Virus record (IMG/VR): IMGVR_UViG_3300017956_002312
Coordinates: 1-43,688 of that record
Length of the DNA: 43,688 nucleotides
DNA from: a virus
Strand: one strand, 5' to 3'
The notes beneath the pieces are model-generated. The model was not told the DNA's origin. It worked only from the letters and a program-made list of their open reading frames with translations, and did not search any database. Below are positions 10,122 through 42,400 of the stretch, piece by piece (position 1 is the stretch's first letter; every line of letters starts with the position of its first letter). A program made the translations under genes and the position numbers.

Positions 10122-10790
10122 ATGAGCACACTTACACTCTATACATCAGGCTCTACAGAGCAACCAAAAGAAGTTGTCCATTCTTGGGAATACATAAAAG
10201 AATGTGCAACCAAAAGTATAAAAGAAATTGGTTTAACCAAACACGATAGAGTATTAGATGTGTTTCCAGCAAACACTATTGCCCACTACACAATCACCGC
10301 CGTTCCTGCGTTTTTAAGCGGCGCACAGCACGTTTCTAGTAACTTTAATGCCTATACCTACCCTGAACTGTTTAACCGCGTTAAACCGACGTATATTAGT
10401 TTAATACCACGCCATTTAGAACTGTTACAAAAGACCAAAGGCTTTAAAGAGTTGGATATGAGTTGTGTCCGTTATATGGTTACTGGTAGTTCCAAAATAG
10501 AACAAAGTTTTATAGATGCATTTAAAGAACGTGGTGTCCAAACTGTAGCAAATTGGTATGGTATGACAGAATTTCCGCCACCTGTAATGATTGGGTATAA
10601 TAGTACATCATTTGATCTAAACACAATAAAAGACGATCATGTAATGTTTATGCCTGTAACTCCTGATGGCAAATTATGTCAATGCCATATTAACGGTAGA
10701 GCAACAGGAGATGTATTTAATATTGAAACAATGGAATTTCACTCACGCATAGAAGAGCCTAATGGAAGAACTTGGAAGAACAATTTTTAA
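10122..10790 (+). CDS. Minimal ANL-superfamily adenylation domain (AMP-binding)
   Basis: 222 residues compared with 500 or more in normal acyl-CoA synthetases or adenylation domains. The P-loop-like motif A3 is at the very N-terminus (YTSGSTEQPKEVV, residues 7-18), motif A5 is NWYGMTE (144-150) and a TGD as in motif A7 is at 195-197. The N-terminal subdomain before A3 and the whole C-terminal lid with the catalytic A10 lysine are absent. It could bind ATP and a carboxylate and make an acyl-adenylate, but thioester formation as in full-length enzymes seems unlikely. No frameshift is visible. It overlaps the next gene by 29 bases and lies between the fibre and halogenase genes. Confidence 0.75.
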   Translation: MSTLTLYTSGSTEQPKEVVHSWEYIKECATKSIKEIGLTKHDRVLDVFPANTIAHYTITAVPAFLSGAQHVSSNFNAYTYPELFNRVKPTYISLIPRHLELLQKTKGFKELDMSCVRYMVTGSSKIEQSFIDAFKERGVQTVANWYGMTEFPPPVMIGYNSTSFDLNTIKDDHVMFMPVTPDGKLCQCHINGRATGDVFNIETMEFHSRIEEPNGRTWKNNF

Positions 10791-11349
10791 TAACGATACT
10801 AGAAGAATAGTAAAACTTTCTGAAGTAGATGTCTTTTCTGTAAAAGATTTTTGTGAAGAATGTAACAAATTAGGATTACAAAATAATAAGTCTTTAGAAA
10901 GAATGAAGTGGGATACTGCTACTTGGTTTGCGGCATTAGACGAAAGTAAAATTTATTCTATTGCAGGATATCATAAATTAAACATAGACGAACACTCGTA
11001 TCGTGTGTTATTCCGCGGTGCTCAACTCCCAGGATACAATCCTAATACTTTTAGTAAAGATGTATATGCTAGTGTTGTTCACTGGACTTACTTATTAGAA
11101 GCACAAATTAACGATATATTAAAACAAGACCCACAAGCAAAACTTTACATAAGCACAAACATAGATAAAAATAACGATGCACCTAGCAGTCATAAACTTA
11201 CTAGAATGATGACTCCGTTATTAATCAAACGTAAATTATTAAGTTTAGAATATGAAAATATAGACCTATACTTTACAAAACAAAACTTGTATAGGGTAAA
11301 TGTTGAAGAATATTTTAAACAGCGTTCTGCTTATTTTGATAGTAAGTAA
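10762..11349 (+). CDS. Unknown protein, 195 aa, coupled to the adenylation protein
   Basis: Starts at ATG 10762 inside the previous gene. Segments such as WFAALDESKIYSIAGYHKL and YRVLFRGAQLPGYNPN resemble the strand-helix order of a GNAT-type acyltransferase core, and LYISTNIDKNNDAPSSHKLTRMM could be its second half. The resemblance is weak and I see no clear acyl-CoA pyrophosphate loop. The tight overlap with the adenylation protein suggests it receives or uses the same activated group. Its 3' end overlaps the convergent halogenase gene by 35 bases. Confidence 0.6.
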   Translation: MEELGRTIFNNDTRRIVKLSEVDVFSVKDFCEECNKLGLQNNKSLERMKWDTATWFAALDESKIYSIAGYHKLNIDEHSYRVLFRGAQLPGYNPNTFSKDVYASVVHWTYLLEAQINDILKQDPQAKLYISTNIDKNNDAPSSHKLTRMMTPLLIKRKLLSLEYENIDLYFTKQNLYRVNVEEYFKQRSAYFDSK

Positions 11350-12541
11350 AGTTTTCGTAGTATAAGCCAAGTGTTGCCCAGATAGCATCAGGATACAAAT
11401 TAGTGTATTTGTTTCCAGTCTTAGCATAGTGTTCCCATAAAGTTTTAGAAAAGTCTAGTTTAGAATAATGCTTCCAAAACTCTGTATCGTTACGTGAACT
11501 TAAACCGTAATGATGAAGAATATAATCACTGTTTTCTTTCCAGGTACGTTTAACCATTTTGTTATATGCTCTAGCACCGTAACCTCTTTCAATGCAATTA
11601 GCAAGAGTAGTAATACCATGCTGTATCATAAACAATGCATTTGATTCTAACGGATCAATAAATCCTTGACTCATGCCTATAGCAACTACGTTGTCTTGCC
11701 AAGCATTTTCTAACCACCCAGGTTGCCATTTAATTAGTCTCGGCTCTTTGTCTTGCCAGGGTGTTAGTTCTTTAGTATATTCTTTAAATTGTTCTAATGC
11801 TGTATCATCGTCAACATATTGATCTGCAAAACAGTATCCTGTACCTGTTCTACTTGTTAGTCCAATTTTAAATTGCCATCCGTAATCTCTAGCGATTGTT
11901 CTAGTATACGGAACCATTTCGTCAAGTTCAAACGGACAAACCCAAGCACTATTAACTAGATGATGCTCAGATAAATCTGCAAGTGTTTTGTCTTTAACAA
12001 ATTGTCTACGAAGTCCTGTACAATCAATATACAAGTCATAACCTTCTGGTAATGTATCTAGTGTTGCAATTTCGTGCTTTACACGTTTACAATTATCTTT
12101 AACAATACGCCCGGCTTCTTCTGCGTGTAAATGATATGCTACTGCTCTCCAAGCATCGCGATCATATAGATCATTAATACTATGCTTATCTACTTTACCT
12201 TGTTCAAACTCTTTGTACCAAGTATTAAATGCATCATTATCGTTGTACCAAAATGTAAATGCAAATTCTTCACCGTCTGGTTTATCCCAACCTTGTTTTA
12301 TATTACCAAACTTATGTACAGCATCACACTTAGGCATCCATTCTTTTTCATCCATTCCGAAACTTTCAAAGAATGATTTTATCATAGGCAATGTACTTTC
12401 ACCTACTCCAATGATAGGAATATCACTGCTTTCGATTAGTGTAATTTCAATGTCTGGAAATTTATTTTCTAAGTATCCTGCGGTCCACCAACCAGTTGTT
12501 CCGCCTCCTATGATACATATTTTTTTATATTGTGTACTCAT
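11315..12541 (-). CDS. Flavin-dependent halogenase (tryptophan halogenase family)
   Basis: 408 residues against about 530 in PrnA or RebH. The FAD motif GGGTTGWWTA is at 12-21 and GVGESTLP at 45-52. Lys77 in AVHKFGNI sits where the catalytic lysine of the family lies (Lys79 in PrnA). DPLESNA (Glu299, Ser300) matches the conserved Glu-Ser that follows it. The diagnostic WxWxIP motif is changed to WQFKIG (222-227). This enzyme class oxidises halide with reduced FAD and transfers it to an aromatic or other electron-rich substrate; a cyanophage member, VirX1, is known to prefer iodide. A flavin reductase is not seen nearby. It is the last gene of a unit with an oxygenase and a propeller-like protein. 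Confidence 0.88.
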   Translation of the reverse strand: MSTQYKKICIIGGGTTGWWTAGYLENKFPDIEITLIESSDIPIIGVGESTLPMIKSFFESFGMDEKEWMPKCDAVHKFGNIKQGWDKPDGEEFAFTFWYNDNDAFNTWYKEFEQGKVDKHSINDLYDRDAWRAVAYHLHAEEAGRIVKDNCKRVKHEIATLDTLPEGYDLYIDCTGLRRQFVKDKTLADLSEHHLVNSAWVCPFELDEMVPYTRTIARDYGWQFKIGLTSRTGTGYCFADQYVDDDTALEQFKEYTKELTPWQDKEPRLIKWQPGWLENAWQDNVVAIGMSQGFIDPLESNALFMIQHGITTLANCIERGYGARAYNKMVKRTWKENSDYILHHYGLSSRNDTEFWKHYSKLDFSKTLWEHYAKTGNKYTNLYPDAIWATLGLYYENFTYYQNKQNAV

Positions 12542-13118
12542 TGTTAACCACTTTATTCATATCTTCAATACGTAACTTTGTAATGAAATGTACACGAGTT
12601 GTTTCACCTTTATTAAATGTACCGTGTAATTTTTCTGTATTAATCAAGTATGCTTTACCTGGTTGCAAATTATATTCTTTACCTTCAAAATTAAACATAG
12701 ATTCATTGTTTGCTGTTATTGGCATATGAATCTTGTAAAATTCTTCATTGTCACTATGTAAATTTATCTTAGTTTCAGGCGGGTGAGCAGTAATAACGGT
12801 TTGTCTTACAAAAGGCAATGCCTTTAAAAACTTTTCTGCAAATCCAAATATTAATTCTGTTGGAACATCAAACGTTCCTACAACATCATCACCTTTAGAA
12901 ATATCGTATGGGGAACAGGGTTTCTTTGGATCTTTTAAATTACTTTGGATTGCCCAACCGTACACTTCACTAACATTATGATCTTTAGTGTCTGTATCAG
13001 CGTCAGGCGCCCACTTCAAGTAACTGAAATTTGATTGAACTGTATGATAGTAATGTTCTAATTCTTCCAACGAAAACTTGAAGTTATCTAATTCAATGAC
13101 TTCAAAGTTCTCAGGCAT
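12525..13118 (-). CDS. AspH-like Fe(II)/2-oxoglutarate oxygenase (1 of 6)
   Basis: 197 residues. The iron site HxD is His121-Ser-Asp123, the distal His is His165 in LINTEKLHG, and the 2-oxoglutarate arginine is Arg175 in TTRVHF. The core matches the aspartyl/asparaginyl beta-hydroxylase fold, with HMPITANNES between the two halves and LQPGKAYLIN before the distal His. Such enzymes hydroxylate protein side chains or small molecules. Its end overlaps the halogenase start by 17 bases and its start touches the propeller-like gene upstream, so the three are co-translated. The N-terminal 110 residues are unlike those of its paralogues and probably set substrate choice. Confidence 0.85.
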   Translation of the reverse strand: MPENFEVIELDNFKFSLEELEHYYHTVQSNFSYLKWAPDADTDTKDHNVSEVYGWAIQSNLKDPKKPCSPYDISKGDDVVGTFDVPTELIFGFAEKFLKALPFVRQTVITAHPPETKINLHSDNEEFYKIHMPITANNESMFNFEGKEYNLQPGKAYLINTEKLHGTFNKGETTRVHFITKLRIEDMNKVVNNEYTI

Positions 13119-14359
13119 TATTCCATTTCTAACTCAAATGCAATCTGCTTAGATTCCTTGTTTTTCAGATCAACAAATAACATCTCTGACTTAAGAACAT
13201 TGTCAACTAAATCAAATCTAAATGGAACTGTTACTGCTTTATTTGTTTCTTTAGAAGCAACACCTACATAAATGTTATTAGTTTTTAGATTGAAACTTTC
13301 TGTAACACCAGAATCGTTAACATCAAATACTGCACCTGGTGCAATGTTAGACATTGATGGATGCTGTACTGAAGGCATTAACATAATGCTATCACCTACA
13401 ACAGGCATAGACCCTAATGATCTATCTGTTCTAGTTCTTTTAATTTCTAGTGTATCTAAATTTAGATCAATTAGTTCTTGACACTTTTCCCAAGAACTAT
13501 GTGCAATTAATCTGTTGTCAACAATAACCCCATTCTTGAAACCAAGTTGTCCAACTTCACTTTCTGAATCTTCAAGTACGTAAGGTACTGAAGTAATTTC
13601 ATTGCCATCATAAATCCAAAAATGTAATTCTTTAGTTTCGCCCATTACTAATGGTAAGCCTACAATTTTATCGTTGCGACTAATAGCACCGTAGAATGCA
13701 CCTTTAACTGGAGCAGTAACTAATTTAGTAGAGTAATCGTCTAATGAAAGAACTAACAATTGGTCTGTTGGATTACCGTATGGGAAAAATGCTACTTCGT
13801 TAGTCTTTTCAATATATGTACAATGTACAGATGCTGTTTCGTCAGCAACATCACGTGCAATCATTTTTTCTGATTCTGTATCATAAATGATTACAACACC
13901 ACTGTTTAATGGTGGGTAAATAATTTTTTTACCAACAACTACAGGTCTACCAAAGTTAAAGTGACCGCAGAATGTTTTAGGTGTTTCAACACCATGAATA
14001 GTAATTGCTTTATCTTGAATCATTTCAACTGTGTCAGTATCAAGGTCAACTTTAGCCATACGCACAATACTATCTACGTGTTTCTTTTGTGTACGCATTA
14101 CATAAGCATACTTGCCTACTACAGCAACAGCACGATATCTGTCACCGTCTTCACTTTGCTCACTAAAATCAATAAACTTTACAGTTTCGTTATCAGTGTT
14201 AATCTTTAAAAGACCGGCTTTAGCACCTGCATCTTTGTTGTAATCTCTATCGGTTTCGCCCTCAACTCTGACCTTACCGTTAGTAACTACTGACAAAAAT
14301 GTGCCATTTCCAATGTAATAAGGGTCGTCAAGCACGTTTGTATAATAAACATTTGACAT
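13118..14359 (-). CDS. Beta-propeller-like repeat protein (1 of 3)
   Basis: About 413 residues from the ATG at 14359, chosen because GGAGA lies just before it; an ATG 12 bases upstream has no such site. The sequence is beta-rich and repetitive, with units of the kind 'VVVGKKIIYPPLNSG', 'NEVAFFPYGNP', 'NDKIVGLPLVMG', 'DSIMLMPSV' every 45-55 residues and a following strand that names a quantity ('LSLDDYSTKLV'). This is the pattern of a seven- or eight-bladed propeller. There is no signal peptide and no catalytic motif, so binding of a protein or glycan is the likely role. A late-type promoter precedes it and an oxygenase and the halogenase follow. Confidence 0.75.
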   Translation of the reverse strand: MSNVYYTNVLDDPYYIGNGTFLSVVTNGKVRVEGETDRDYNKDAGAKAGLLKINTDNETVKFIDFSEQSEDGDRYRAVAVVGKYAYVMRTQKKHVDSIVRMAKVDLDTDTVEMIQDKAITIHGVETPKTFCGHFNFGRPVVVGKKIIYPPLNSGVVIIYDTESEKMIARDVADETASVHCTYIEKTNEVAFFPYGNPTDQLLVLSLDDYSTKLVTAPVKGAFYGAISRNDKIVGLPLVMGETKELHFWIYDGNEITSVPYVLEDSESEVGQLGFKNGVIVDNRLIAHSSWEKCQELIDLNLDTLEIKRTRTDRSLGSMPVVGDSIMLMPSVQHPSMSNIAPGAVFDVNDSGVTESFNLKTNNIYVGVASKETNKAVTVPFRFDLVDNVLKSEMLFVDLKNKESKQIAFELEME

Positions 14360-14382
14360 ATTTTTCTCCATACTCTATACTA

Positions 14383-14390
14383 TATTTATT
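14383..14390 (-). promoter_or_regulatory. T4-like late promoter motif (AATAAATA)
   Basis: On the minus strand AATAAATA lies 23 bases before the propeller-like gene start at 14359 and overlaps the stop codon of the oxygenase gene upstream. It would give a separate late transcript for the propeller, oxygenase and halogenase genes. Confidence 0.55.
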
Positions 14391-15126
14391 TAATATGCGT
14401 GGTAATCCCAGCGAAGGTGGTAACATATTCTGGGTCGATTCTAGTTAAAAAATGCACTCGTTCGGTGGTTCCGTTGTTAATTGTGCTATGATTTACTATA
14501 GGATTAATCATATATATTTTGCCTGGCTTCATTACATACTTACGCTCGTCGTTTTCACCAAAACAGAATAGTGCTTGATCATTTGAGTGCATTGGAATAT
14601 GCAACTTCTTATATGATCCATCATGATGATTATGCACACGGGTGCCTGGTGGATGCTTAATTGCTAGTAACTGTCTTAGTGCTGGTTCGCCCCACTCTTT
14701 AATCATCTTGTTTACTATACCAAATTTATATACACTCATAATTTTAGAATCAGCATAAAACCCATCACCGTCGGCATCTAAATCGTATTTTTCTAATTCA
14801 GGATAATGTATAGGATTAACATGACGTTTTCCTGCACAAGGAATGTTACGTTCGGCAGGCCAAGATATTCCCCAACCGCTAACGTTGCCTTCGTAGTTTC
14901 CTACCCTATTTGTTTCAGTCCACATTTCAAAAATTTCTTTTTTAATGTATTCTTTTAATCCAAAGTGAAATTCTAAATGTGCTAGATCAGTTTTTAGTAC
15001 ATCATAATAATCTTCAAGCAACGAAATATCAATAGTTGCTTTAAACTCAATAATATCCCAGTCATAACTATTAAGAAATTCTGGTGTAAAATCTTCTGGG
15101 TTGTAATCTGTTATGTATCTGTCCAT
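14386..15126 (-). CDS. AspH-like Fe(II)/2-oxoglutarate oxygenase (2 of 6)
   Basis: 246 residues. HxD is His167-His-Asp169 in VHNHHDGSY, the distal His is His213 in INPIVNHST, and the 2-oxoglutarate Arg is Arg223 in TERVHFLTRI. KLHIPMHSNDQ and MKPGKIYMIN match the core of the other members. The N-terminal 155 residues are longer than in the previous paralogue and include a Cys-His-Pro-rich stretch (NIPCAGKRHVNPIHYPE), possibly a substrate lid. It overlaps the phosphatase-like gene by 16 bases and is the last gene of the five-gene unit starting at 18356. Family certain, substrate unknown. Confidence 0.85.
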   Translation of the reverse strand: MDRYITDYNPEDFTPEFLNSYDWDIIEFKATIDISLLEDYYDVLKTDLAHLEFHFGLKEYIKKEIFEMWTETNRVGNYEGNVSGWGISWPAERNIPCAGKRHVNPIHYPELEKYDLDADGDGFYADSKIMSVYKFGIVNKMIKEWGEPALRQLLAIKHPPGTRVHNHHDGSYKKLHIPMHSNDQALFCFGENDERKYVMKPGKIYMINPIVNHSTINNGTTERVHFLTRIDPEYVTTFAGITTHIK

Positions 15127-15578
15127 GTTGTCCTTAGCATTTCTTTTACATAGTAATAAGAATTAACTGCGCCTGGTGTAGGCTTTTGTTCATCAGTATT
15201 TAACAAAGTTTCTTTTATAAAGTCTGCAACTGCTTTACTTCTTACTTGTCCTTTTATACAATAAACATGAACATTAGCATCTTCAGGAATAGTTTTTATA
15301 AATTTTACTAATTCGTCTGCCTGGTATCCACGCATTGCTTTTGCTTCAAACCACATATCAAAGTCGCCGCCCCACTTTCGAGTGTCCTCGGGAACATCGT
15401 CAAACTTTAATGTTATAACGTTTGAATGTTGTCTTTTAAAATACGGATCACAATGTGGGCCGCCTGACGGCTCAATACAAATAAAGAAATCTTTTTTATT
15501 ATCAACAGTTGTGTCGTCTATGTCATTAAACTTTGCATAGGTAATAAAACTTTCTTTTGATCTATATTCTACTAACAT
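15111..15578 (-). CDS. CX5R protein-tyrosine/dual-specificity phosphatase-like protein
   Basis: 155 residues. VYCIKGQVRSKAVADF carries the phosphatase signature C-x5-R (Cys107 to Arg113) followed by the usual Ser114; the residue before the Cys is Tyr where His is typical. ITLKFDDVPEDT upstream could supply the general-acid Asp. The layout resembles small dual-specificity phosphatase-like proteins. It may remove phosphate from a protein, sugar or lipid, or be a binding relic. It lies between two AspH-like oxygenases and overlaps both (16-17 bases), and a kinase-like gene is 4 kb away, so reversible phosphorylation within the pathway is conceivable. Confidence 0.6.
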   Translation of the reverse strand: MLVEYRSKESFITYAKFNDIDDTTVDNKKDFFICIEPSGGPHCDPYFKRQHSNVITLKFDDVPEDTRKWGGDFDMWFEAKAMRGYQADELVKFIKTIPEDANVHVYCIKGQVRSKAVADFIKETLLNTDEQKPTPGAVNSYYYVKEMLRTTWTDT

Positions 15579-16230
15579 CTTCAGTCCATACCTTTCCGTA
15601 CAAGTGTATTCTGTTTGTACTACCTTTGTTTTCTACACTATGCGGAATAGTTGTGTTGACAAGATATGCCCAACCCGGTTCCATATGAAATTCTTCGCCT
15701 CCAATAATCCAATTACTATCTTCATTAGTATGAATTGGAATATGTACACGCAATTTGTCAGGTTGATCTTGATGTGTAATTAATTTTGTTCCTGGGGTAT
15801 GTATTGTTACCAACCACTTTTTACTTTTAAAAGGTAATTGCTTTACAAGTTCTAATCCGTATCCTGTAAAACATTTACGAGGATTTAATTCATCATTATC
15901 GTTGTCACGATATTCCTCTTTAGCACATCCTTGTTCAAATGGTTTAGGTCCAGGTTCATCACTGTTCCAACAAAGTGTATAGTATGCCGCATCATCTGGC
16001 AAGTAATGTCCTGTCTTTGCTTCAGGATCTACAATAGGAAACTTCCATACGTGATGATTTTCACCAATAACAAACTTCCAATCAGAATAATTTTCTTCAA
16101 GAGTTTTATACCACTCTTGTATTTTTTCTACATCTACTTCAAACAATTTTTTAACTTTGAATCCTAAGTCTAAAGGTTCACAAGTTTCAATATATCGTTT
16201 GAAATCTTGGGTGTGTTGTTGCGTTTCCAT
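15562..16230 (-). CDS. AspH-like Fe(II)/2-oxoglutarate oxygenase (3 of 6)
   Basis: 222 residues. HxD is His153-Gln-Asp155 in LITHQDQPD, distal His is His197 in TTIPHSVEN, and the 2-oxoglutarate Arg is Arg207 in STNRIHLYG. VHIPIHTNEDSNW and MEPGWAYLVN complete the core. The N-terminal half contains Trp/His-rich segments (DWKFVIGENHHVWKFP) and an acidic Asp/Asn cluster near 108-115 that do not occur in the paralogues. Both ends overlap neighbouring genes (phosphatase-like downstream, 489-aa unknown upstream by 44 bases), so it is made in step with them. Confidence 0.85.
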   Translation of the reverse strand: METQQHTQDFKRYIETCEPLDLGFKVKKLFEVDVEKIQEWYKTLEENYSDWKFVIGENHHVWKFPIVDPEAKTGHYLPDDAAYYTLCWNSDEPGPKPFEQGCAKEEYRDNDNDELNPRKCFTGYGLELVKQLPFKSKKWLVTIHTPGTKLITHQDQPDKLRVHIPIHTNEDSNWIIGGEEFHMEPGWAYLVNTTIPHSVENKGSTNRIHLYGKVWTEDVSRI

Positions 16231-17656
16231 TTCTTACACTTTCATATAGATCAACTCCAATGTAATCATGACCGTATAACACTAGGTCATCAGGTATGAG
16301 TTGTCTAAATACTTTCCACTTTTCTTCTAATTGCTCTGGTTCAACGTTCCAATGTAACATTTCGCTGGACCATATATTTGTAGTCCACAATACTTTTGTA
16401 CCATGTACATTATTTATTTGGTCAAATAATAGGTTTGGCTCGTTAACAATATCAACAAGATGGAACTCGTGTTTTAGTTCTTTATAACGTGACCATAAAC
16501 GCTGGAATGCTAAACTGCCACCGTGTTCTTTCATTTCTTGTTCCCAGAATTGCTTGTAGTTTCCTCTATATGTTGAACTAAAGTTATATTCTAAGTCGTG
16601 TTCTAATAACCATTTATCTAAATCATAGCCATCCCACGTTTCAAGTAAGTGCTTTTTATAGTTTAAACTTGCTTCACACCAATCAAAGTAATGTACAGTA
16701 GTGCCCCTATGGAATCCGTTGGCATTTAATATAGCAAGAGGCTTAAAGCCTGCGGCCGCAGTAAAGAAATGATCAATATACTTTCCGTTTGTACGCACAC
16801 CTTCACCTGAAAGTGTTTCTGTGTTAAAAGCATATACCCTATCTTTTTCAATATCTTCTTGATATGCTAGTTTTCTTATCCAAGCGGCTTGACTTTGATT
16901 AAGTCCTTCGTCTTTAGTTTTATCTACCCACGCTTCTGCAAGTTTATCCGACTCTATGTATGGATATAAAAATACTTTACAGTCACGCATATCATTATCT
17001 AAGTTGTCTATGGTAATGTTATTGCGTAATGCTAGATCAATCCAGTTACTTCCGTCTGCTGTTGTAGCATATTTTGACTCTCCGTTACCTGTTTTAATCC
17101 AGGCTGGCGTGTAATTGCTATGAATTGTTTCTTCACTTAGTTCATAATTTTGTAATGTTGGCTTACGATCCCAGTATACACCTATTTCATCAAATGCTGG
17201 TTTGCCTAGTTCAACCCACTTAGCAATGTTAACAAACAAATACTGTCTATGTAGTCCTGGATAAGCACCTGTTGTAAGATAGTGTTGCTTTTTCTTATCC
17301 ATAATATGCCCTATTACAAAAAACTGCGGATTCTTTTCAGCATATTCTACACTTTTCTGCACTAAACTTGGACCTCGATATAAAAGTAACCCTTGACAAG
17401 CAATCATAGCATAATCTTTTCCTTTTGCTAATGCTTCTTCAAGTATTGTTTCTACTTTATTATGGAATCCTACATAATTACAGATACCCATCTTTAACAT
17501 ACGATTAATATAAAAGTATGTCATGTCAAATGTACGTTTTTGTAAAAATTTATTAGGTATATCTCTTGAAATATCTAAAATACCAATTGCAACTTTGTTA
17601 TCAATGTTTAGATTCTCGTAGTATCTGTCTACTGTAATGCTATTCCAGTCTTTCAT
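16187..17656 (-). CDS. Large two-part protein of unknown function, 489 aa
   Basis: The N-terminal part (about 1-170) has DYAMIACQGLLLYRG, FFVIGHIMD and YPGLHRQYLFVNIAKW, a pattern I have seen in unassigned marine phage and bacterial proteins and which looks like a glycosyltransferase-type alpha/beta fold. The C-terminal part (about 290-489) contains FTAAAGFKPLAILNANGF, TVHYFDWCEASLNYKKHL and TKVLWTTNIWSSEM, which resembles a class I methyltransferase-like Rossmann domain. No clear DxD or SAM motif proves either. AGAGGG precedes the start. It overlaps an oxygenase gene downstream and is separated by one base from another upstream. A bifunctional tailoring enzyme is my guess. Confidence 0.6.
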   Translation of the reverse strand: MKDWNSITVDRYYENLNIDNKVAIGILDISRDIPNKFLQKRTFDMTYFYINRMLKMGICNYVGFHNKVETILEEALAKGKDYAMIACQGLLLYRGPSLVQKSVEYAEKNPQFFVIGHIMDKKKQHYLTTGAYPGLHRQYLFVNIAKWVELGKPAFDEIGVYWDRKPTLQNYELSEETIHSNYTPAWIKTGNGESKYATTADGSNWIDLALRNNITIDNLDNDMRDCKVFLYPYIESDKLAEAWVDKTKDEGLNQSQAAWIRKLAYQEDIEKDRVYAFNTETLSGEGVRTNGKYIDHFFTAAAGFKPLAILNANGFHRGTTVHYFDWCEASLNYKKHLLETWDGYDLDKWLLEHDLEYNFSSTYRGNYKQFWEQEMKEHGGSLAFQRLWSRYKELKHEFHLVDIVNEPNLLFDQINNVHGTKVLWTTNIWSSEMLHWNVEPEQLEEKWKVFRQLIPDDLVLYGHDYIGVDLYESVRNGNATTHPRFQTIY

Positions 17657-34203: not shown

Positions 34204-34229
34204 ACTATTCTCCGTTAATTAAGTACGCA

Positions 34230-34237: not shown

Positions 34238-34242
34238 CATAG

Positions 34243-34250: not shown

Positions 34251-34263
34251 GGAACCCAGAAAC

Positions 34264-35532: not shown

Positions 35533-36385
35533 TAAACCAAAAAGAATCTTTACATTTGGTTGTAGTTTTACTTCATATATTTGGGGTACTTGGGCAAATG
35601 TTATCGGAGCAGAATTTCCTGAGGCTGAGTTTAGAAACTTTGGTCGTTCGGGTGCAGGTAATCATTATATTTTTAATTCGCTAATGCAGGCAGATGCTGT
35701 ATATAATTTTACACACGAAGACCTAGTTATTGTACAATGGACTAATGTTTGTAGAGAGGATAGATATCTTCCTCAACGTGACGGTTGGCTTGTGCCGGGT
35801 AACATTTACACACAAGGCGAGTATGACGAAAAGTGGGTGCAAACTTGGTTTAGTGAGTATGGTGCTTACGTTAGAGATTTTGCATTCATCTATGCGGCAA
35901 ACGAACATCTAAAACATAAAACACAATTTCATTTCTTGCAAATGATGAAAATTGTTGACTACACCGATCAATGGAACTTAAACAGACGCACACAACATCA
36001 TGATAAAATTAAAAAACTAGCAGACATCTACAGACCAGTTCTTGAAACTATACAGCCTAGTTTTTACGAAGTTCTTTGGAACAACGATATTCAAAAGAAA
36101 TTTAAACAAGATAGAAAAACTGTAAACAAAGATTTTCAAGACGGTCATCCTCATATAGTTGAATATTACAATTATCTCAAAGCAGTTTTTAAACATAACT
36201 GGCGTGACGAAACCGATGCCGCAGTAGCCGAAAGTTTTAAAAAGTGGGTTACAATGATGAACGGTGCAAGTAAAGGTGTTCCAAAGTTTCATATTTACAG
36301 TTCAGGACAAAGATTTGTTGATAGTTGTAACTATGAACTTAGATTGCGTCAATCAGATCAATTAGAACCAATCTTGCATTTATAA
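35510..36385 (+). CDS. SGNH/GDSL-like protein with GCS block I
   Basis: 291 residues. Block I is RIFTFGCSFTSYIWG (Gly17, Cys18, Ser19), with Cys in place of the usual Asp. FGRSGAGNHYIFN (44-56) is block III with Gly50 and Asn51, and QDGHPHIVEYYNYL near residue 205 offers the final His. This GCSF variant is common in phage and bacterial proteins of uncertain function, possibly acyltransferases for glycans. Its 5' end overlaps the glycosyltransferase-like gene and its 3' end overlaps the convergent radical SAM gene by 6 bases. Confidence 0.72.
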   Translation: MAKQLIHNKPKRIFTFGCSFTSYIWGTWANVIGAEFPEAEFRNFGRSGAGNHYIFNSLMQADAVYNFTHEDLVIVQWTNVCREDRYLPQRDGWLVPGNIYTQGEYDEKWVQTWFSEYGAYVRDFAFIYAANEHLKHKTQFHFLQMMKIVDYTDQWNLNRRTQHHDKIKKLADIYRPVLETIQPSFYEVLWNNDIQKKFKQDRKTVNKDFQDGHPHIVEYYNYLKAVFKHNWRDETDAAVAESFKKWVTMMNGASKGVPKFHIYSSGQRFVDSCNYELRLRQSDQLEPILHL

Positions 36386-37558
36386 TAATTCAGGAAAAGT
36401 TTCAGCAAAACTTCTTTTACGTATTTGATCGTAGTAAGAATTTTTGTTTGCCCATATAGCATTATGGTCTGGATTATATTCTACATTGCTAATATACTTT
36501 AACACACTATTAATAGTTTCTTTGTGTTCTCTATTAGTTATTTTATTGTAATATTCTTCTAAACGTTGTTTTGCGTGTTGTAGTTTTTCTGTTGGTACTG
36601 CTGAAACACTATAATGTACAGGATCAACAAGATTATATAAAGTACAACTGTTTACGTCAAATCCATTATCTGTCATATATTCTAAAAAGTCTACAAGTGT
36701 AACAATATTAAATGCACTTACTACTGCATTAAAACTCATAATTACGTGAGGACATTCTTTTTTAATAAAATTAAGATTCTCAATAATCTTATTCCAGTCA
36801 GTTCCTTCTCTAATGTATTCTGCTTTAGAACCATAATGATCTAAACTTGCTCTTACTTGTACTTTTTTAAATTGTTTCCAGTAATCTGTTACAAGTTTAC
36901 CTTTATAAGTTAGGTTACTTAAATTAGTATTGTATTGTAATATTGCATCTGTTTTATTTTCAGCAATTAAATAATCTAAAATTTCGTAATGCTTATCTGT
37001 TACTAACGGTTCGCCACCTGCAAAATAAAAATCTTCAATATCTTTTAAATATGGCTTAAACTGTTCAAACAAACTGTCATTAGAATCTCCTCCTGCAAAT
37101 GTATATACAGGAACGTTCTTTCCGTTCGCATTATCTTCTATTGCCCAACTTGAACTGTATGTTGCACTACACGTTCTACATTTAAAATTACAAATATTAC
37201 TCCAGCGTACATCAAAGTAAAGTAATTTCATTACGTCTAAACTGCCGTCTTGATTAGTTAGTTCACGCACACCTAAATGCTTAGAAAACTTTTTATTATT
37301 TTCTTTTCTAAAACTCCAAACATCACTTGCTTCATGTGCCCAGCATTGCGAACATTCGTTTGGTTGTTCACCATTTAGTAATGCAAGACGTAACTTTTTG
37401 TATGCTTCGCTATTCCAAATTTCTTTAATAGTATTATGTTTAGTATTTCCTAAAGGTTTGTCCCACTTACCAATACAACAAGGTAACACATTGCCATCTG
37501 GATTGACATACATATGGCTCCAGGGTAATATACAAAATGTATCTTTACTTGTACTCAT
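36380..37558 (-). CDS. Radical SAM enzyme with N-terminal twitch-like domain (G)
   Basis: 392 residues. N-terminal module: FCILPWSHMYVNPDGNVLPCC (in part) with Cys9, Cys27-Cys28 and Cys69-x2-Cys72 (ECSQC). Core: CNFKCRTC (Cys123, Cys127, Cys130), FAGGEPLV, YNTNLS and ASLDHYGSKAEYIREG. Ends FAETFPELL. It is closest to enzyme D (27315-28637) by the order PW-H...NPDG/RPNG...CC. It lies last in the minus-strand unit from 42400 and overlaps enzyme H by 14 bases. The two form a pair that may act in sequence. Confidence 0.88.
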   Translation of the reverse strand: MSTSKDTFCILPWSHMYVNPDGNVLPCCIGKWDKPLGNTKHNTIKEIWNSEAYKKLRLALLNGEQPNECSQCWAHEASDVWSFRKENNKKFSKHLGVRELTNQDGSLDVMKLLYFDVRWSNICNFKCRTCSATYSSSWAIEDNANGKNVPVYTFAGGDSNDSLFEQFKPYLKDIEDFYFAGGEPLVTDKHYEILDYLIAENKTDAILQYNTNLSNLTYKGKLVTDYWKQFKKVQVRASLDHYGSKAEYIREGTDWNKIIENLNFIKKECPHVIMSFNAVVSAFNIVTLVDFLEYMTDNGFDVNSCTLYNLVDPVHYSVSAVPTEKLQHAKQRLEEYYNKITNREHKETINSVLKYISNVEYNPDHNAIWANKNSYYDQIRKRSFAETFPELL

Positions 37559-38912
37559 TATAAAATTGCTCTAATTCTGGAAATACACTAACAAGATTAG
37601 TTCCGCGTCTACGATCGTATTCTGTAAACCAACGTGAGAAATCTCTACGTGCTTGTTCTAGTTTTTCAGGTTCATAATTAGTAGTTGCCATATAGTCTAC
37701 AACACGTCTAAACTTTTCATATTCTAAACTACTAAACTTTGTGTTGTCATTATCATCTTTAAAACGCTCTATTAAATCTAAATGGTCTTGCATATATGGC
37801 ATAAACTTTTCTTTAGGTAAAATATTCATGTCAAAGATTGTAGGTTCTTTTAAATGTGGAGTATCAAATCTAATACGTTGCCATTGTGTTGCATTTTCAT
37901 TATTATATTTTACACGCCAATCTAAAATCTTTGCTAATAGCAAACTAAAACTTGTAACAGCAAATAAATTAAATGTAATCATAAATGTTACAGGAAAGTT
38001 TGTATTAGTTAGATAGTAATCTAAGTTCTTTTCCCATAGTTCAATATCTAAACCAGTACGTGTATATTCTGCACGTTCGCCCCAAGTATCTATACTTGTA
38101 TAAAGTTTAAAACTTTTAATACAATTCTTTTCTTTTAGTGTGTTAATACGTTCTACAAGTTTTTCTACTAGTTTAGTTTTAACACCCATATTGCTGTTTA
38201 CTTCGATTTGAATATGTGGCTTAGGATCTGCTTCCAACTCGTCGAAAAGTCTCCAAGTACTCTTGTGCATTAAAGGCTCACCTCCCGTAATTCTCAAAAT
38301 ATTAAGAGTCTTGGAGACTTCCGGCCACCAATCCCACCATGCTTTCACATAGGGGTTTGATTCTTCATTGTCATATAACTCAAACCAGTCAATGTCTTGC
38401 CTATGTGCTGTTGACATTTTATATGGTCCGTGTTCTTTAATCTCATTATAGTATCTACTGCTAAACTTAGGATGGCAATAACCGCATTTAAAATTACACT
38501 CATTACTAAAGTTAATCTCAATATACTCCGGATTTATGTTAAAATCCGCCCCTTTTTGTTTTATTTCCGTAATTCTTTCGGGTCTATAGATACTCGTAGT
38601 TTTGATATGTCTATCACTAACAAAGTCTTTGCCCATTGCTTCGATCTTCCAGCAATAGTTACAACCTTCTGGCTTTTGTCCACATAACATCTGCTTACGT
38701 TGTTCTTTTTTCTCTTTAGTGTTATGCAATGCACTTGGATTATCTTTTAATTCTTCTAATGGTATAGGGTGCGGAGCAGGATGATAACAACTATGTGTTT
38801 CACCTGTTTGTAAATAGATAGTAGTATGATGCCACTTTGCTAAACAAAAAGTAGGAGATGTTTCCTCTTCTACTATCGGCATTATTTCTTTAATTTTATC
38901 TAGTTCGCTCAT
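37545..38912 (-). CDS. Radical SAM enzyme with variant N-terminal twitch-like domain (H)
   Basis: 455 residues, the longest of the group. N-terminal module has Cys23 (FCLAKWHH), a single Cys42 in HSCYHPAPHPIP where relatives have CC, an extra Cys77 and Cys84-x2-Cys87 (GCNYC). Core: CNFKCGYC (Cys139, Cys143, Cys146), ITGGEPLMHK, EVNSNMG and TSIDTWGERAEYTRTG. The ending VSVFPELEQFYNEYK is of the shared type. It overlaps radical SAM G by 14 bases and the glycosyltransferase-like gene by 4. Confidence 0.87.
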   Translation of the reverse strand: MSELDKIKEIMPIVEEETSPTFCLAKWHHTTIYLQTGETHSCYHPAPHPIPLEELKDNPSALHNTKEKKEQRKQMLCGQKPEGCNYCWKIEAMGKDFVSDRHIKTTSIYRPERITEIKQKGADFNINPEYIEINFSNECNFKCGYCHPKFSSRYYNEIKEHGPYKMSTAHRQDIDWFELYDNEESNPYVKAWWDWWPEVSKTLNILRITGGEPLMHKSTWRLFDELEADPKPHIQIEVNSNMGVKTKLVEKLVERINTLKEKNCIKSFKLYTSIDTWGERAEYTRTGLDIELWEKNLDYYLTNTNFPVTFMITFNLFAVTSFSLLLAKILDWRVKYNNENATQWQRIRFDTPHLKEPTIFDMNILPKEKFMPYMQDHLDLIERFKDDNDNTKFSSLEYEKFRRVVDYMATTNYEPEKLEQARRDFSRWFTEYDRRRGTNLVSVFPELEQFYNEYK

Positions 38913-39796
38913 CTAATAACTCTAGGAGTGTTTTCATAAACTGCTTTAAACATTTTACTTTGTCCAGCATCGAAAGGTTTTGGACTAATCGGCAGTCCTG
39001 CTTCTCCTAATTTTGCTCCTAGTTCTTCCATTGATTCATCTAATGCCCAAGCATCCTTATCTTTTTCTTTTTCCCACATCTCATTTAAGATTTTAAAGTC
39101 TCTAGTTTGTGAAATGTCCCAATCTGTACAATATGCTAGATGACATCCTTGCCTTGCACCGTACACTGACCAAATTCCGTTAGTAACATCTGCACCAACG
39201 TTCATCCAAATTAACAATCTTTGGTAATTTTGCCACCAAATGTCTTTGCTAAGATCAGAAACTCTTGCACCTCTGTTTAAACTCATCTTAACACCTTCAC
39301 GGAATCCTGCTCTCCATGCTTGATGCGGTGTTGAACTAATAATACTAGTGCTATAGTTTTCGTTTAATTGGTAATAGTTGTCAAAATAACAAAATTCAAT
39401 ATTTGTATCATCATTGCCGTCGGTGTTTTCATGTGTTTTCATATTTTTAACGAATTCTTTAGTCCACATTTTTAAACTGCCGTTGCCGTATTTTAATCCG
39501 TTAACATCGATGTGTCCACACCAACTAAATTGATAATCATCATCAACGCCCATTACGTCTAAATCTAAAACTACATTTAAAAATTCCGGATCTACAATAG
39601 TATCTCCGTCAACTGTTACAAAGTGTTTTGTTTCTGACAAATCTGCACAGGCTTTATGTGCGGCATCTGAACCGTGTACTCCGTGAACACGTTTTGCCCA
39701 AGGAATTTTTTTGCATAAATCAACATAATTCTTTTCGCAGTTAGGTTCATCGTAACTTAAGAATATAATATCTTGCTCTGCAATGTTAATCTTCAT
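38909..39796 (-). CDS. Glycosyltransferase-like protein, phage DGD family (2 of 2)
   Basis: 295 residues, paralogue of the protein at 31450-32133. DxD is Asp63-Gly-Asp65 in FVTVDGDTIVDPEF; AKRVHGVHGSDAAHKAC and IIFLSYDEPNCEKN at the N-terminus and GARQGCHLAYCTDW later match the relative. Its C-terminal 60 residues (WEKEKDKDAWALDESMEEL, FDAGQSKMFKAVYENTP) are an extra tail. The shared core indicates a common reaction, probably sugar transfer; the tail may fix the acceptor. It overlaps by 4 bases on both sides. Confidence 0.75.
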   Translation of the reverse strand: MKINIAEQDIIFLSYDEPNCEKNYVDLCKKIPWAKRVHGVHGSDAAHKACADLSETKHFVTVDGDTIVDPEFLNVVLDLDVMGVDDDYQFSWCGHIDVNGLKYGNGSLKMWTKEFVKNMKTHENTDGNDDTNIEFCYFDNYYQLNENYSTSIISSTPHQAWRAGFREGVKMSLNRGARVSDLSKDIWWQNYQRLLIWMNVGADVTNGIWSVYGARQGCHLAYCTDWDISQTRDFKILNEMWEKEKDKDAWALDESMEELGAKLGEAGLPISPKPFDAGQSKMFKAVYENTPRVIR

Positions 39797-40386
39797 TTAA
39801 TTACCTCGTACATATACTTGTCAAATCTTTTAATTGTATAAATGCCAATTGGTTCGTTATCAAATTCAAATTTACTATCAAATGGCAATACAATGTACTT
39901 ACCGTCAACTAAATCTTCAAAGTTAAAAGAGATTGTTTTGTACAAAATGTTTGGATCGTTTTTCTTTGTAATTGAAAAAAACATAATTTGTTTAAAACTT
40001 ACTTTTTGAGCAAGTATGTTTGCTTTTAAATCTCCGCCAATACTAAATTTCCAACACGTATCTTTTACATTTTTAGTAATACGTATATCTGCGTCTTTAA
40101 TTTGTTCTTCTTTTACTTCGTATATAAGATCATCAACATAGTAACTATCAATATCAAAGTTGTTCCTAGTTCTTAACTGGTATTCTTTTTTAGTTTTGTT
40201 ATAATGTACATAATAATATGACATTGGTTCTGTACCATTAACAATACTAGATACCTCTTTTTCTTCTACTGGAATATAACTTCCTTCTTTTGGTTGTGAA
40301 TTAGTAACACTAATCAAGTCACCATTTGTAGGATTAAAGATAGCATATCTTTTATCAATAACAACAGGAGGTCTCATTGTAATCAT
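39793..40386 (-). CDS. Unknown beta-rich protein, 197 aa
   Basis: No family recognised. The N-terminus (PPVVIDKRYAIFNPTNGDLISVTN) and a later VHYNKTKKEYQLRTR suggest beta strands; the C-terminal half (WKFSIGGDLKAN, KYIVLPFDSKFEFDNEPIGIYTI) looks like a sandwich or barrel. There is no signal peptide, membrane segment or enzyme motif. From its make-up it could be a virion or adaptor protein. It lies between two glycosyltransferase-like genes with 4-base overlaps at both ends, so it may help them or be their target. Confidence 0.65.
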   Translation of the reverse strand: MITMRPPVVIDKRYAIFNPTNGDLISVTNSQPKEGSYIPVEEKEVSSIVNGTEPMSYYYVHYNKTKKEYQLRTRNNFDIDSYYVDDLIYEVKEEQIKDADIRITKNVKDTCWKFSIGGDLKANILAQKVSFKQIMFFSITKKNDPNILYKTISFNFEDLVDGKYIVLPFDSKFEFDNEPIGIYTIKRFDKYMYEVIK

Positions 40387-41219
40387 AGTTTTAACACTCT
40401 TTCATACTTTGAAATCTTATCTTTTGATGCAAACGTTTTTTCAGTATAATGAAAAATGCCTGTTTGAGCATGATTTCCTATTTTTAATTTAAGGTCATCT
40501 GTTAGATAACTACCAACTCTACTTTGCCAAGTAGCACTTGGATTGTACCAACCTTGTATTCTAGGCTTCATGTGTGTAAAACTTGGTATGGTTGCTTTCT
40601 TATTAGTAATCTTTTCTTCACAGTCTAGTATCTTTGCAACAATAGCCGCACTTAAATCTACTGATAGTGATTTCTGATATAGTTCTTTAGCATATTTTCC
40701 ATAAAATAGTTCCCAGTTATTCATAACTAGTTCTAACCAAGTATAAAATTCTTTTGCAAAATCACTCTTTTTAAAGTAATGAAACCCTGCATATAAGTTT
40801 GGCAGTTCGTTAGCAATAAAAGTTTTACGATAATAGTTATCTACTACTTCATCTCCTCTATAAGTAAACACCTTGCTTACAAAATATAGGTCATAATTAC
40901 TTAAAAAGTTCCACCAACTTTCTAAATCTTGCAATACAACCATGTCTGTGTCCATTACAATAGTTTCATCATACGGACTAGCATGATAAATTTTCCATCT
41001 ATTCTGTACTTTCCACTCTGCTTCTATTGCACTATCTTCCCAGGGGATTTCTTTTATACAATCAAACAGTGATACATATTTTTCAGGAACTTCGTCATTG
41101 GTAATTAGGCAAATTTTAGGATCTTTTTGTGTAGCGTGTAAACTCATTGCTAACAAACAAGCCTGTTTTACATAATCGTCTTCACTGTTTTGTGCAATGA
41201 ATACAAATCCTTTACTCAT
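40383..41219 (-). CDS. GT8-like glycosyltransferase (1 of 2)
   Basis: 278 residues from ATG 41219 (a TTG 6 bases upstream is less likely). The GT-A motif DxD is Asp90-Thr-Asp92 in IVMDTDMVVLQDLE; the N-terminus FVFIAQNSEDDYVKQACLLAMSLH is the family's nucleotide-binding strand and helix. HMKPRIQGW and NHAQTGIFHYTE near the end fit the C-terminal His of GT8 enzymes. It is the tandem paralogue of the next gene. Overlaps are 4 and 8 bases. Confidence 0.8.
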   Translation of the reverse strand: MSKGFVFIAQNSEDDYVKQACLLAMSLHATQKDPKICLITNDEVPEKYVSLFDCIKEIPWEDSAIEAEWKVQNRWKIYHASPYDETIVMDTDMVVLQDLESWWNFLSNYDLYFVSKVFTYRGDEVVDNYYRKTFIANELPNLYAGFHYFKKSDFAKEFYTWLELVMNNWELFYGKYAKELYQKSLSVDLSAAIVAKILDCEEKITNKKATIPSFTHMKPRIQGWYNPSATWQSRVGSYLTDDLKLKIGNHAQTGIFHYTEKTFASKDKISKYERVLKL

Positions 41220-42057
41220 TATCAATAATCCTTGTTAAACTAAACTTGTTCATAACGTGTACATTACTACCTTTAATCCTTAAAGGCGTATATTCTCCTA
41301 AATGGTCTTTCTTTTCGATTAAGAACAAAAAGTTTTCTTTATCAAGTTCCCATAGAATATCTCTATCAGTAGTAAAATACTTTGTTCCTGGCAGAGGTGT
41401 TGCAAAGTCTCCATGTTGATAACCATTCATAATATGAATAGCAATACTAAACACCCAATCGTTGCGAAATGTTCCTTTATTAATTTGAAATATACTGTTA
41501 TAGTGTTGCCAATTTTCTTGAATATGCTTTGTTAAGTTAAAATATGTTTCTACTTCTTTGCACTTTTTAAAATAAACTACTGTTGCCCAATAAAAGTCAA
41601 CACTTGTTTCGCTAATATTTTTAAATTCTGCTACTTCTCTAAAACCTGACAAATCTTTTGCATCTTTGTATATTTGAAAATTGTGGTCTGATGTAAAACA
41701 CTCTTTAAATAAATCGTTAGCAATAATATAATCGCTATCCAACATTAATGTTTCGTCATATGGTGTTAGATCGTATGCTTGTGTTCTTAGGTCGTTTTTA
41801 AATTCTAAGTTTTTAAAGACATTACTTCCGTCATAATATCTTTTGTTACTAATACCTTGTTGAAAAGGCACTTCAATTACTTTATCCCACACTTCTTGGT
41901 AATCAGGATACGCCGAATGCAAGTATTCAATACTGTCTGTAACAATACTTGTAGGTATACCTAAATATATTTTAATACGTTTTGCTAAAAAGTGTGCTTG
42001 TTTGATGTAATCTATTTGAGCATTGTTTCTAGCAAAAATTAATGCTCCTTTACTCAT
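41212..42057 (-). CDS. GT8-like glycosyltransferase (2 of 2)
   Basis: 281 residues. DxD is Asp107-Ser-Asp109 in LMLDSDYIIANDLF, and the N-terminal ALIFARNNAQIDYIKQAHFLAKRI matches its neighbour. FYWATVVYFKKCKEVE and NVHVMNKFS complete the fold. The two copies, next to each other, probably add successive sugars or act on different acceptors. It overlaps the upstream small gene by 8 bases and the downstream copy by 8. Confidence 0.8.
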   Translation of the reverse strand: MSKGALIFARNNAQIDYIKQAHFLAKRIKIYLGIPTSIVTDSIEYLHSAYPDYQEVWDKVIEVPFQQGISNKRYYDGSNVFKNLEFKNDLRTQAYDLTPYDETLMLDSDYIIANDLFKECFTSDHNFQIYKDAKDLSGFREVAEFKNISETSVDFYWATVVYFKKCKEVETYFNLTKHIQENWQHYNSIFQINKGTFRNDWVFSIAIHIMNGYQHGDFATPLPGTKYFTTDRDILWELDKENFLFLIEKKDHLGEYTPLRIKGSNVHVMNKFSLTRIIDNE

Positions 42058-42400
42058 ACTCTACAAGTCCAGATACTTTCCTGTTAGTTCTAATTTTTTC
42101 GTATTCTGTGTGATATTCGTTAGTTGCTGTAAAATAAATGTCTAATGCTTCGCTATAAAAGTCATCAATTTTTTCAATACGTACAGGAATATCATTATCG
42201 TCAATTAACACAACGTTTTCTTGACCCGACTGTACCAACATATTACAAAAGTTTAGTAGTTCTTTTGTTACACTAAATTGTCCACCATTAAAATAATAGA
42301 CGTTTGTTTCATAGAACTTTTCTTTTGCTACTCTTTTTTGGTTATTTAGGGTAGTCATATAATTGGCAAAGTCTAATGCTTTTTCTAATCGTTCGTCCAT
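42050..42400 (-). CDS. Small phage hypothetical protein, 116 aa
   Basis: Starts LEKALDFANYMTTLNNQKRVAKEKF, a helix, then YYFNGGQFSVTKELLNFCNML and VVLIDDNDIPVRIEKIDDFYSEALDIYFTATNEY. I recall relatives of this protein in marine T4-like cyanophages, without function. GGAGATC lies just before the ATG and a late-type motif lies 26-33 bases upstream. It heads the minus-strand unit that continues through the two GT8-like genes, and may be needed for their expression or folding. Confidence 0.8.
   Translation of the reverse strand: MDERLEKALDFANYMTTLNNQKRVAKEKFYETNVYYFNGGQFSVTKELLNFCNMLVQSGQENVVLIDDNDIPVRIEKIDDFYSEALDIYFTATNEYHTEYEKIRTNRKVSGLVEYE

Follow-up and report, generated by a model that had tools for sequence, protein, structure and literature searches.

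What use does a phage make of a dense block of radical, oxidative and sugar-transferring enzymes? The question is raised by a linear virus record of 43,688 bases (IMG/VR record IMGVR_UViG_3300017956_002312, the whole of which is called the window below), where the region between 10,122 and 42,400 was described in a sequence-only reading as one island of radical S-adenosylmethionine (rSAM) enzymes, AspH-like oxygenases, a halogenase and glycan genes, with products suggested to act on virion parts. Comparison with related records revealed a conserved core and a swappable part rather than one fixed system. The core holds two GT-A glycosyltransferases, usually two GT8 glycosyltransferases, a methyltransferase-like protein and about five rSAM proteins, and the swappable part holds AspH-type, halogenase-like and propeller-like proteins together with further rSAM proteins. 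The core is joined to tail-fibre genes, and we likewise infer an action on virion parts, giving an even chance to the proposal that these enzymes, made late, decorate the phage's own tail fibres.

The eight rSAM genes were all found where they had been placed (18425, 22246, 23884, 27315, 28609, 30498, 36380 and 37545; genes are designated by their first positions), each matching PF04055 and retaining the CxxxCxxC motif. Seven exceed the curated cut-off of 29.5 bits, while 37545 reaches 31.2 bits only when summed over the frame and 28.0 bits in hmmscan, below the cut-off, and stands far above the cut-off (170 bits) of the rSAM family NF033640 (N_Twi_rSAM, 'twitch domain-containing radical SAM'). 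The latter cut-off is exceeded by five of the eight, namely 18425, 22246, 27315, 36380 and 37545 (217.6-422.4 bits), and 23884, 28609 and 30498 score under it. A SPASM-type domain N-terminal to the rSAM core was matched by Pfam in four twitch-family members, above cut-off in 22246, 27315 and 36380 and below it in 18425. The 30498 family resembles viperin-like enzymes weakly, in the rSAM core only.

Five of the six AspH-like 2-oxoglutarate (2OG) oxygenases claimed for the island (12525, 14386, 15562, 17658 and 25429) exceed the PF05118 cut-off, and the sixth, 24786, which has no Pfam match, is AspH-like from its motif and from clustering with the 17658/25429 homologues; the iron-binding H-x-D and distal H are invariant in all six. 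Among the roughly five glycosyltransferase-like proteins, 40383 and 41212 are supported as GT8 and 38909 and 31450 as GT-A-type, whereas 16187 and 34249 are putative. The 40383/41212 family matches the glycogenin-type GT8 profile with a best E of 4.7e-6 over about 95 of 282 profile positions. The predicted model of 38909 (pLDDT 85) matched GT-A-type folds with Z 9-10 across some 130-145 residues, the fold being common also to nucleotidyltransferases and the Foldseek TM-scores being just 0.25-0.39, and the acidic DxD-type motif (D63 and D65) is invariant in 21 sequences of the 31450/38909 family. On this model, the two proteins are assigned by fold, as GT-A-type, rather than by sugar donor or class. 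Profile searches of the PDB returned no believable match for the 34249, 35510, 32126, 29588 and 16187 families or for GT-A, the model of 39793 matched no PDB chain at E 0.001, and one of 12 island proteins tried matched a PHROG (40383, function not assigned there). The nucleotide-sugar dehydrogenase (33031) and the adenylation fragment (10122) were recognized as named.

Two sets of records were compared, the first consisting of the records of 22 of 108 loci, some loci sharing a record, and the second of the records of 20 of 80 loci picked through the neighbouring ATPase gene, those on contigs longer than 27 kb, where L121 and L186 had come up in the first search as well. One record of 184,930 bases (G001) represents the same or nearly the same phage, with window proteins 99-100% identical, and the T4-type capsid protein gp23 was found in the eight longest of the 40 records, each above 120 kb. 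When the window proteins were compared by tblastn with 14 record stretches, the order proved to be kept, mostly at about 30-90% identity outside G001. All 17 right-hand core genes (27315-42450) occur in order in 11 of the 14 stretches; G018 and G019 stop inside the core, with 32126-35510 missing or only weakly matched in G018, and G020 carries only part of it, in a distant form. Of the left half, a stretch may have the whole, a portion or other genes instead, and 8710 at its edge was found in 12 of the 14, the other two ending short of its position. Such an order in many independent records excludes a chance pile-up of genes or an assembly artefact.

Counts of PF04055 matches, which include QueE in some records, are 7-10 in each of 13 syntenic records. 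Matches are present in 18 of the 20 ATPase-picked records and number five or more in 13 of the 20, with maxima of 22 (G031), 14 (G033) and 12 (G032) and, at the low end, one match in three records and none in G026 and G028. Smaller forms are represented by G011-G014 with two or three matches and by G020 with five. The 22 matches of G031 (IMGVR_UViG_3300007609_001002; L259-L261), a 60-kb record, lie mostly in one same-strand run after fibre genes.

In total, 1,075 open reading frames (ORFs) of 20 record stretches were grouped into families, the set comprising 19 records, several of them related to each other, and the window, with G001, G003 and G016 omitted because they nearly duplicate the window, G002 and G006. 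Three groups occur in all 20 stretches, namely the rSAM cluster with 191 proteins, the GT-A family with 37 and that of 29588 with 20; the GT8 family occurs in 16, the dehydrogenase family in 14 and the halogenase family in eight. The rSAM cluster was built by chaining and includes some non-rSAM proteins, the PF04055 counts being the firm ones; for example, a homologue of one motif-lacking member (G032_54057) gave a QueC/PP-loop match. Among members 250 aa or longer, 180 of 183 have the CxxxCxxC motif. Grouping at 50% identity divides the 189 members that reach 200 aa into 69 groups; the eight rSAM proteins of the window lie in eight different ones and are therefore not recent copies of one another. 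Another cluster mixes AspH with the phosphatase-like 15111, probably via the fusion of the 15111 and 15562 orthologues in G034 (C1:17950-19026), so AspH counts were taken from PF05118, which was found in 30 of 40 records and was missing from G017, G020 and G041 although core genes are there. The orthologues of 37545 and 36380 are also fused, into one 862-aa protein, in G007 (C1:72150-74738).

The conserved neighbourhood that had been expected holds for the core, whose families occur together, rather than separately, in divergent phages. The notion of a single system survives for the fixed order of the core and fails for the variable part, which is swapped, the halogenase family being present without any PF04055 match in G009 and G010, two records fetched via the halogenase. 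Rough dN/dS values against two relatives, for island genes where dS was estimable, range from 0.04 to 0.42, with dS often above 1. Judged from these sequences, the island genes are intact and under purifying selection, and decay is excluded by the dN/dS values and the kept motifs.

Beyond the window's right end, G001 carries tail-fibre, collar-fibre and baseplate-type genes. A single strand bears, in order, a large structural gene, a gene of family c28, three fibre genes, 42450, 42050, GT8, GT8, 39793, GT-A, rSAM and rSAM. In the 11 stretches examined out of the 14 that hold a 42450-family gene, 42450, 42050 and GT8 always share a strand; the three fibre genes precede 42450 in 10 of the 11 (the G032 stretch begins at 42450), and the run continues via GT-A into rSAM in 10, ending after the first GT8 in G008 by the ORF calls. 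Gaps within the fibre/enzyme run are mostly -65 to +57, with a few of 119-319, and the same strand extends through many rSAM genes in G031 and G033.

The late-type promoters of the sequence-only reading were recovered as motifs that are present, conserved and placed at operon heads. The exact form TATAAATA occurs once in the window, fewer than the 8.0 times predicted by chance; the promoter claim is based only on the looser NATAAATA at conserved operon heads. This motif precedes the fibre gene adjoining 42450 in 11 of 11 cases, c28 in 8 of 10, 8710 in 16 of 16 and 13118 in 4 of 4, and it forms a divergent pair between 33031 and 34249 (10/13 and 9/12). Upstream of the run's enzyme genes it occurs once in 72 cases (41212 1/14, 40383 0/15, 38909 0/16, 37545 0/19, 36380 0/8), and before the other run genes 42450, 42050 and 39793 in 1/11, 0/14 and 0/9, the pooled value for all ORFs being 112 of 1,013. 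The gene 3751, outside the island and of no assigned role, has the motif upstream in 15 of 16 records. A sigma-70 scan of positions 1-10500 of L241 stayed at chance level (42 versus 43.6), as did terminator-like sites there (5 versus 4.8); the sole minus-strand terminator-like site, at 16-36 of L241 or about 35.4 kb of the window, lies beyond the 36380 end of the run.

Swappable content was also compared with the flanking proteins, relatedness being allowed for. It co-varies with the fibre-like 8710 (partial r 0.53, p 0.0015) and with 42450 (0.57, p 0.003), the values for the immediate neighbours 8338 and 42050 being -0.08 and 0.10.

A counterpart of the fibre run is found in phage PA5oct, where homologues of the large structural gene, c28, two fibre-type proteins and 42450 occur in the same order (gp355-gp360) and carry the record note 'ESI-MS/MS'. 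These notes are taken as detection in virions; in a paper on phage MIJ3, which is nearly identical, a figure legend applies the words 'confirmed by ESI-MS/MS' (electrospray ionization tandem mass spectrometry) to structural proteins. The gene types of the left flank are the same in PA5oct, with a MoxR-like ATPase 50% identical, and together with the fibre run they tie the lineage to PA5oct (Arenbergviridae). By its genes, the phage belongs to a marine, T4-like, PA5oct-related lineage. PA5oct differs in that small opposite-strand genes follow gp360, with no tailoring genes; its genome gave no PF04055 match, its annotated QueE-like protein escaping that model.

Decoration of the phage's own fibres is supported by the fixed site and order, the fibre gene run, the placement of the motifs, the fibre homologues of PA5oct and the co-variation, and further by purifying selection, the neighbour fusions and the 2OG oxygenases and halogenases among the tail genes of annotated cyanophages and HTVC008M. 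The locus would then be a late-expressed tailoring block joined to the tail-fibre genes. During fibre production, the GT8 and GT-A enzymes would add sugars, activated in part by the dehydrogenase, to fibre or baseplate proteins, and the rSAM enzymes, with the SGNH-like, kinase-like and methyltransferase-like proteins, would modify these sugars or residues close to them. Further lineage-specific marks may come from the AspH-type oxygenases and the halogenase-like enzyme, and swapping of the variable part would give the adhesive surface a different chemistry, and with it a different receptor binding, stability or shielding. If the enzymes do act on fibres, oxygen-sensitive radical chemistry would represent a diversification of adhesins beyond sequence change, and the locus would supply enzymes that act on proteins or glycans.

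Several points weigh against this proposal. Surface-glycan loci typically contain GT8 enzymes, a sugar dehydrogenase and SGNH-like proteins, and we know of no virion proteomics for the lineage. Co-transcription of fibre and enzyme genes is a prediction and would not name a substrate, and the motif's presence before 3751 shows that it is shared with a gene of no assigned role. The co-variation test was small (n 9-14), post hoc and made on 15 genes, and non-fibre genes co-vary too (29588 0.62, p 0.0005; 7426 0.42, p 0.004; 7743 0.32, p 0.012); linked exchange could be an alternative cause.

The remaining point comes from bacterial chromosomes. A tandem trio of GT-A, GT-A and rSAM genes was found in three of the examined genomes (G043, G124 and G122) of the class of G047, a Bdellovibrionia metagenome-assembled genome, with GT-A proteins 39-48% and rSAM proteins 33-64% identical to those of the phage, and a 29588-type protein lies close by in G047 and G122. 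Since the trio, and 29588-type proteins next to rSAM genes, are present there, the core chemistry is not specific to virions. The larger rSAM islands of G043 and G044 hold AspH-type and 16187-type homologues, and at least 12 PF04055 matches are listed for the G043 island contig. By eye from their sequences, the neighbours of the islands look like chromosomal household genes; homologues of the phage fibre families were not matched in the Bdellovibrionia stretches compared, and Pfam gave mostly no match for ten island proteins. Class-wide, profile matches to GT-A occur in 11 of 143 genomes and to N_Twi_rSAM in at least 46 of 143, a lower bound with at most 11 candidates scored per genome; the GT-A profile found none in 296 Bacteroidota genomes, an empty result that shows little. 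In rSAM-rich islands of the Bdellovibrionia class (L283-L285, L287, L298 and L299), rSAM proteins are up to 67% identical to phage ones. An rSAM island of the Bdellovibrionales (L286) encodes a QueC-like PP-loop protein and a family c40 protein, the N-terminus of which looks by eye like a B12-binding rSAM protein.

A core common to phages and bacteria weakens the fibre argument and gives weight to a shared product, for example a protein-linked or surface glycan. It is proposed tentatively that the locus is a modular one for adhesin chemistry, in which the glycosyltransferase/rSAM core makes an unusual, radical-modified glycan or residue on fibres, the swapped rSAM, AspH and halogenase-like cassettes individualize the surface chemistry of the phages, and the core is exchanged with Bdellovibrio-like predators, which possibly set the same mark on their own surface proteins. 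The Bdellovibrionia core makes the chemistry approachable in bacteria without a phage isolate.

The main rival places the product on the host surface, where an O-chain or other envelope glycan would be built or trimmed late, blocking superinfection or the sticking of progeny to debris. It agrees with the GT8 and nucleotide-sugar dehydrogenase genes, with the SGNH-like proteins (motif only), with the occurrence of the core in bacterial chromosomes and with a printed precedent, since host-surface modification is proposed for the glycosyltransferases of a pelagimyophage cluster (PMC7029224). It is nevertheless judged unlikely. Among 40 proteins of the island and its edges scanned with Pfam, many of them unmatched, there was no initiating sugar-phosphate transferase, flippase or polymerase, functions that host enzymes could serve, and the late-type motifs and the continuation of the fibre run fit virion assembly better than early exclusion. 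These absences and the late, fibre-linked arrangement tilt the balance towards virion modification. An autonomous O-antigen or capsule locus was rejected on the same scans.

A pathway for a small molecule, or for a peptide resembling the ribosomally synthesized and post-translationally modified peptides (RiPPs), directed against competitors or host defences, would employ rSAM, AspH, halogenase-like and AMP-binding proteins, enzyme types that are common in natural-product clusters, and the diversity of the rSAM proteins would suit it. It is regarded as improbable, as no more than 4 of the 40 gaps between called genes are longer than 20 nt and the longest, at 68 nt, leaves no space for a separate small precursor gene, neither a leader-recognition domain nor a transporter appeared among the Pfam matches, and the gene run is tied to fibre genes. 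A RiPP cluster with a small precursor was rejected for that gap size and the missing leader-recognition domain. It is quite improbable that recombination beside fibre genes merely collects unrelated cargo with no common product; free swapping of the left half among relatives and the halogenase family outside any island in G009 and G010 speak for it, whereas core families in all 20 stretches in conserved order, the fusions of neighbours and the glycosyltransferase-rSAM trio kept in bacteria speak against it. Hypermodification of phage DNA or RNA with sugars and radical chemistry is highly improbable, for although a QueE-like gene stands at the left edge and DNA bases can be substrates of phage glycosyltransferases and rSAM enzymes, the matches of the scanned proteins include neither a hydroxymethylase nor a base-exchange enzyme (other modification genes could sit elsewhere in the genome) and the motifs are late-type.

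The closest described relative is the host recognition cluster (HRC) of pelagimyophages and cyanomyophages, a large region of T4-like marine phages that is hypervariable and lies in the structural part of the genome, between VrlC and gp14. It contains tail fibres, GT8 enzymes and a UDP-glucose dehydrogenase, and AspH is named as core to that phage group (PMC7029224). The island resembles it in being hypervariable, adjacent to fibre genes and provided with glycosyltransferases in a T4-like phage (gp23), and differs from what is described there in its fixed GT-A/GT8/rSAM core continuous with fibre genes and its PA5oct-related lineage. HTVC008M has one PF04055 match in its whole genome, against 7-10 and up to 22 in island records. 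In the annotated phages HTVC008M, Sf-CH11, P-TIM40 and S-SSM7, too, a halogenase and several 2OG oxygenases lie between genes for the baseplate and the tail fibres, but with zero or one PF04055 match per genome and halogenases 28-32% identical to that of the window. Vibrio phages KVP40 and K566 have rSAM proteins that are similar to the window's N_Twi proteins and occur in small clusters, with a PF00534 glycosyltransferase close to one of them; these differ in having 5-6 PF04055 matches per genome, near nucleotide-metabolism genes, at about 20-27% identity, and no non-rSAM island protein matched in the loci compared (L009 and L010) at E 1e-3. Each of the seven isolate phages compared has 0-6 PF04055 matches, fewer than the window's eight. 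The Bdellovibrionia islands share the GT-A, GT-A, rSAM tandem and the methyltransferase-like, AspH-type and 16187-like homologues, and differ in being chromosomal and in the unmatched fibre families.

The claim of an undescribed system was accordingly narrowed. The general kind is already in print: T4-like marine phages have a host-recognition region that is hypervariable and carries glycosyltransferases and some rSAM cassettes. In a search covering few subscription journals, the rSAM-rich form, the fixed core joined to fibre genes and the chromosomal counterpart were not found, nor, in the one search made for it, was a description of the Bdellovibrionia rSAM/AspH/glycosyltransferase islands.

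Table. Features of the window, with strand and basis of assignment.
Feature	Position	Strand	Basis or remark
Left flank	1..8655	+	QueE-like rSAM (partial), exonuclease, MoxR-like ATPase (4559), phrog_1314 protein (5807)
Late-type promoter motif CATAAATA	8669..8676	+	before 8710; seen in 16/16 homologues
Tail-fibre-like protein, left edge	8710..10077	+	N-terminal part 31% like phage tail fibre protein
Stand-alone AMP-binding part-domain (variable)	10122..10790	+	PF00501; 10 record stretches
Protein without assigned role (variable)	10762..11349	+	no Pfam match; family in 16/20 stretches
Flavin halogenase-like protein, 408 aa	11315..12541	-	Trp_halogenase PF04820, E 1.4e-73
AspH-type 2OG oxygenase	12525..13118	-	PF05118
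Propeller-like protein	13118..14371	-	named after a weak resemblance to the propeller-like 19864/21113 (24% and 19% identity)
AspH-type 2OG oxygenase	14386..15126	-	PF05118
CxxGxxR phosphatase-like protein	15111..15578	-	motif only
AspH-type 2OG oxygenase	15562..16230	-	PF05118
Glycosyltransferase-like protein, label unconfirmed	16187..17656	-	no Pfam or PDB sequence match
AspH-type 2OG oxygenase	17658..18356	-	PF05118
rSAM, N_Twi family	18425..19459	+	PF04055, NF033640
Small APH-like kinase	19446..19901	+	E 0.001, below cut-off; HGD..N and DWD motifs present
Propeller-like protein	19864..21120	+	weak Kelch match below cut-off
Propeller-like protein	21113..22249	+	clusters in one family with 19864
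rSAM, N_Twi family	22246..23364	+	PF04055, NF033640
Short-chain dehydrogenase/reductase (SDR)-like protein, label unconfirmed	23345..23893	-	no Pfam match
rSAM, not N_Twi	23884..24789	-	PF04055
AspH-like oxygenase	24786..25442	-	H-x-D/H invariant; clusters with AspH
AspH-type 2OG oxygenase	25429..26070	-	PF05118
Two proteins without assigned role (26061; 26737)	26061..27324	-	no Pfam match; 26737 no PHROG match
Core rSAM, N_Twi family, N-terminal SPASM-type domain	27315..28646	-	PF04055, NF033640, kept order
Core rSAM, C-terminal SPASM	28609..29595	-	PF04055, kept order
Core methyltransferase-like protein	29588..30190	-	E 0.003, below cut-off; family in 20/20 record stretches
Small, apparently membrane-spanning protein (variable)	30187..30501	-	judged by eye; in 4 stretches
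Core rSAM, not N_Twi	30498..31478	-	PF04055
Core GT-A glycosyltransferase, paralogue of 38909	31450..32142	-	clustering; D63 and D65 conserved
SGNH-like protein	32126..33034	-	motif only, by eye; no Pfam or PDB sequence match
UDP-glucose/GDP-mannose dehydrogenase	33031..34203	-	Pfam
Divergent late-type promoter motif pair	34230..34250		serves 33031 and 34249
Conserved glycosyltransferase-like protein, label unconfirmed	34249..35532	+	family in 17/20 stretches
SGNH-like protein	35510..36385	+	motif only, by eye; no Pfam or PDB sequence match
Core rSAM, N_Twi	36380..37558	-	NF033640
Core rSAM, N_Twi	37545..38912	-	PF04055, NF033640
Core GT-A glycosyltransferase	38909..39796	-	predicted model and fold matches
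Conserved protein without assigned role	39793..40386	-	model matches only uncharacterised phage proteins
Core GT8 glycosyltransferase	40383..41225	-	glycogenin profile match
Core GT8 glycosyltransferase	41212..42057	-	glycogenin profile match
Conserved small protein, between fibre genes and GT8	42050..42400	-	kept order, gene run
Virion-type protein	42450..43340	-	homologue of PA5oct gp360 (record note ESI-MS/MS)

The label of flavin halogenase stands for the family of 11315, with a strong Trp_halogenase match. The WxWxIP motif, typical of flavin-dependent Trp halogenases, is absent and WQFKIG stands in its place; the protein is also short, so it is named halogenase-like rather than halogenase, and by its sequence it may carry out a chemistry other than halogenation. 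The methyltransferase and mini-kinase labels (29588 and 19446) are backed by matches and, for the latter, by kinase motifs, both matches falling below cut-off. The SGNH label of 32126 and 35510 keeps its motif by eye, whereas neither these two nor the SDR-like 23345 has a Pfam match.

Homologues of the 29588 family are found in Bdellovibrionia as well, and those of 16187 in 10 stretches and in the Bdellovibrionia islands. The AMP-binding part-domain of 10122 is kept at about 223 aa in 10 record stretches, which indicates a real stand-alone protein instead of debris.

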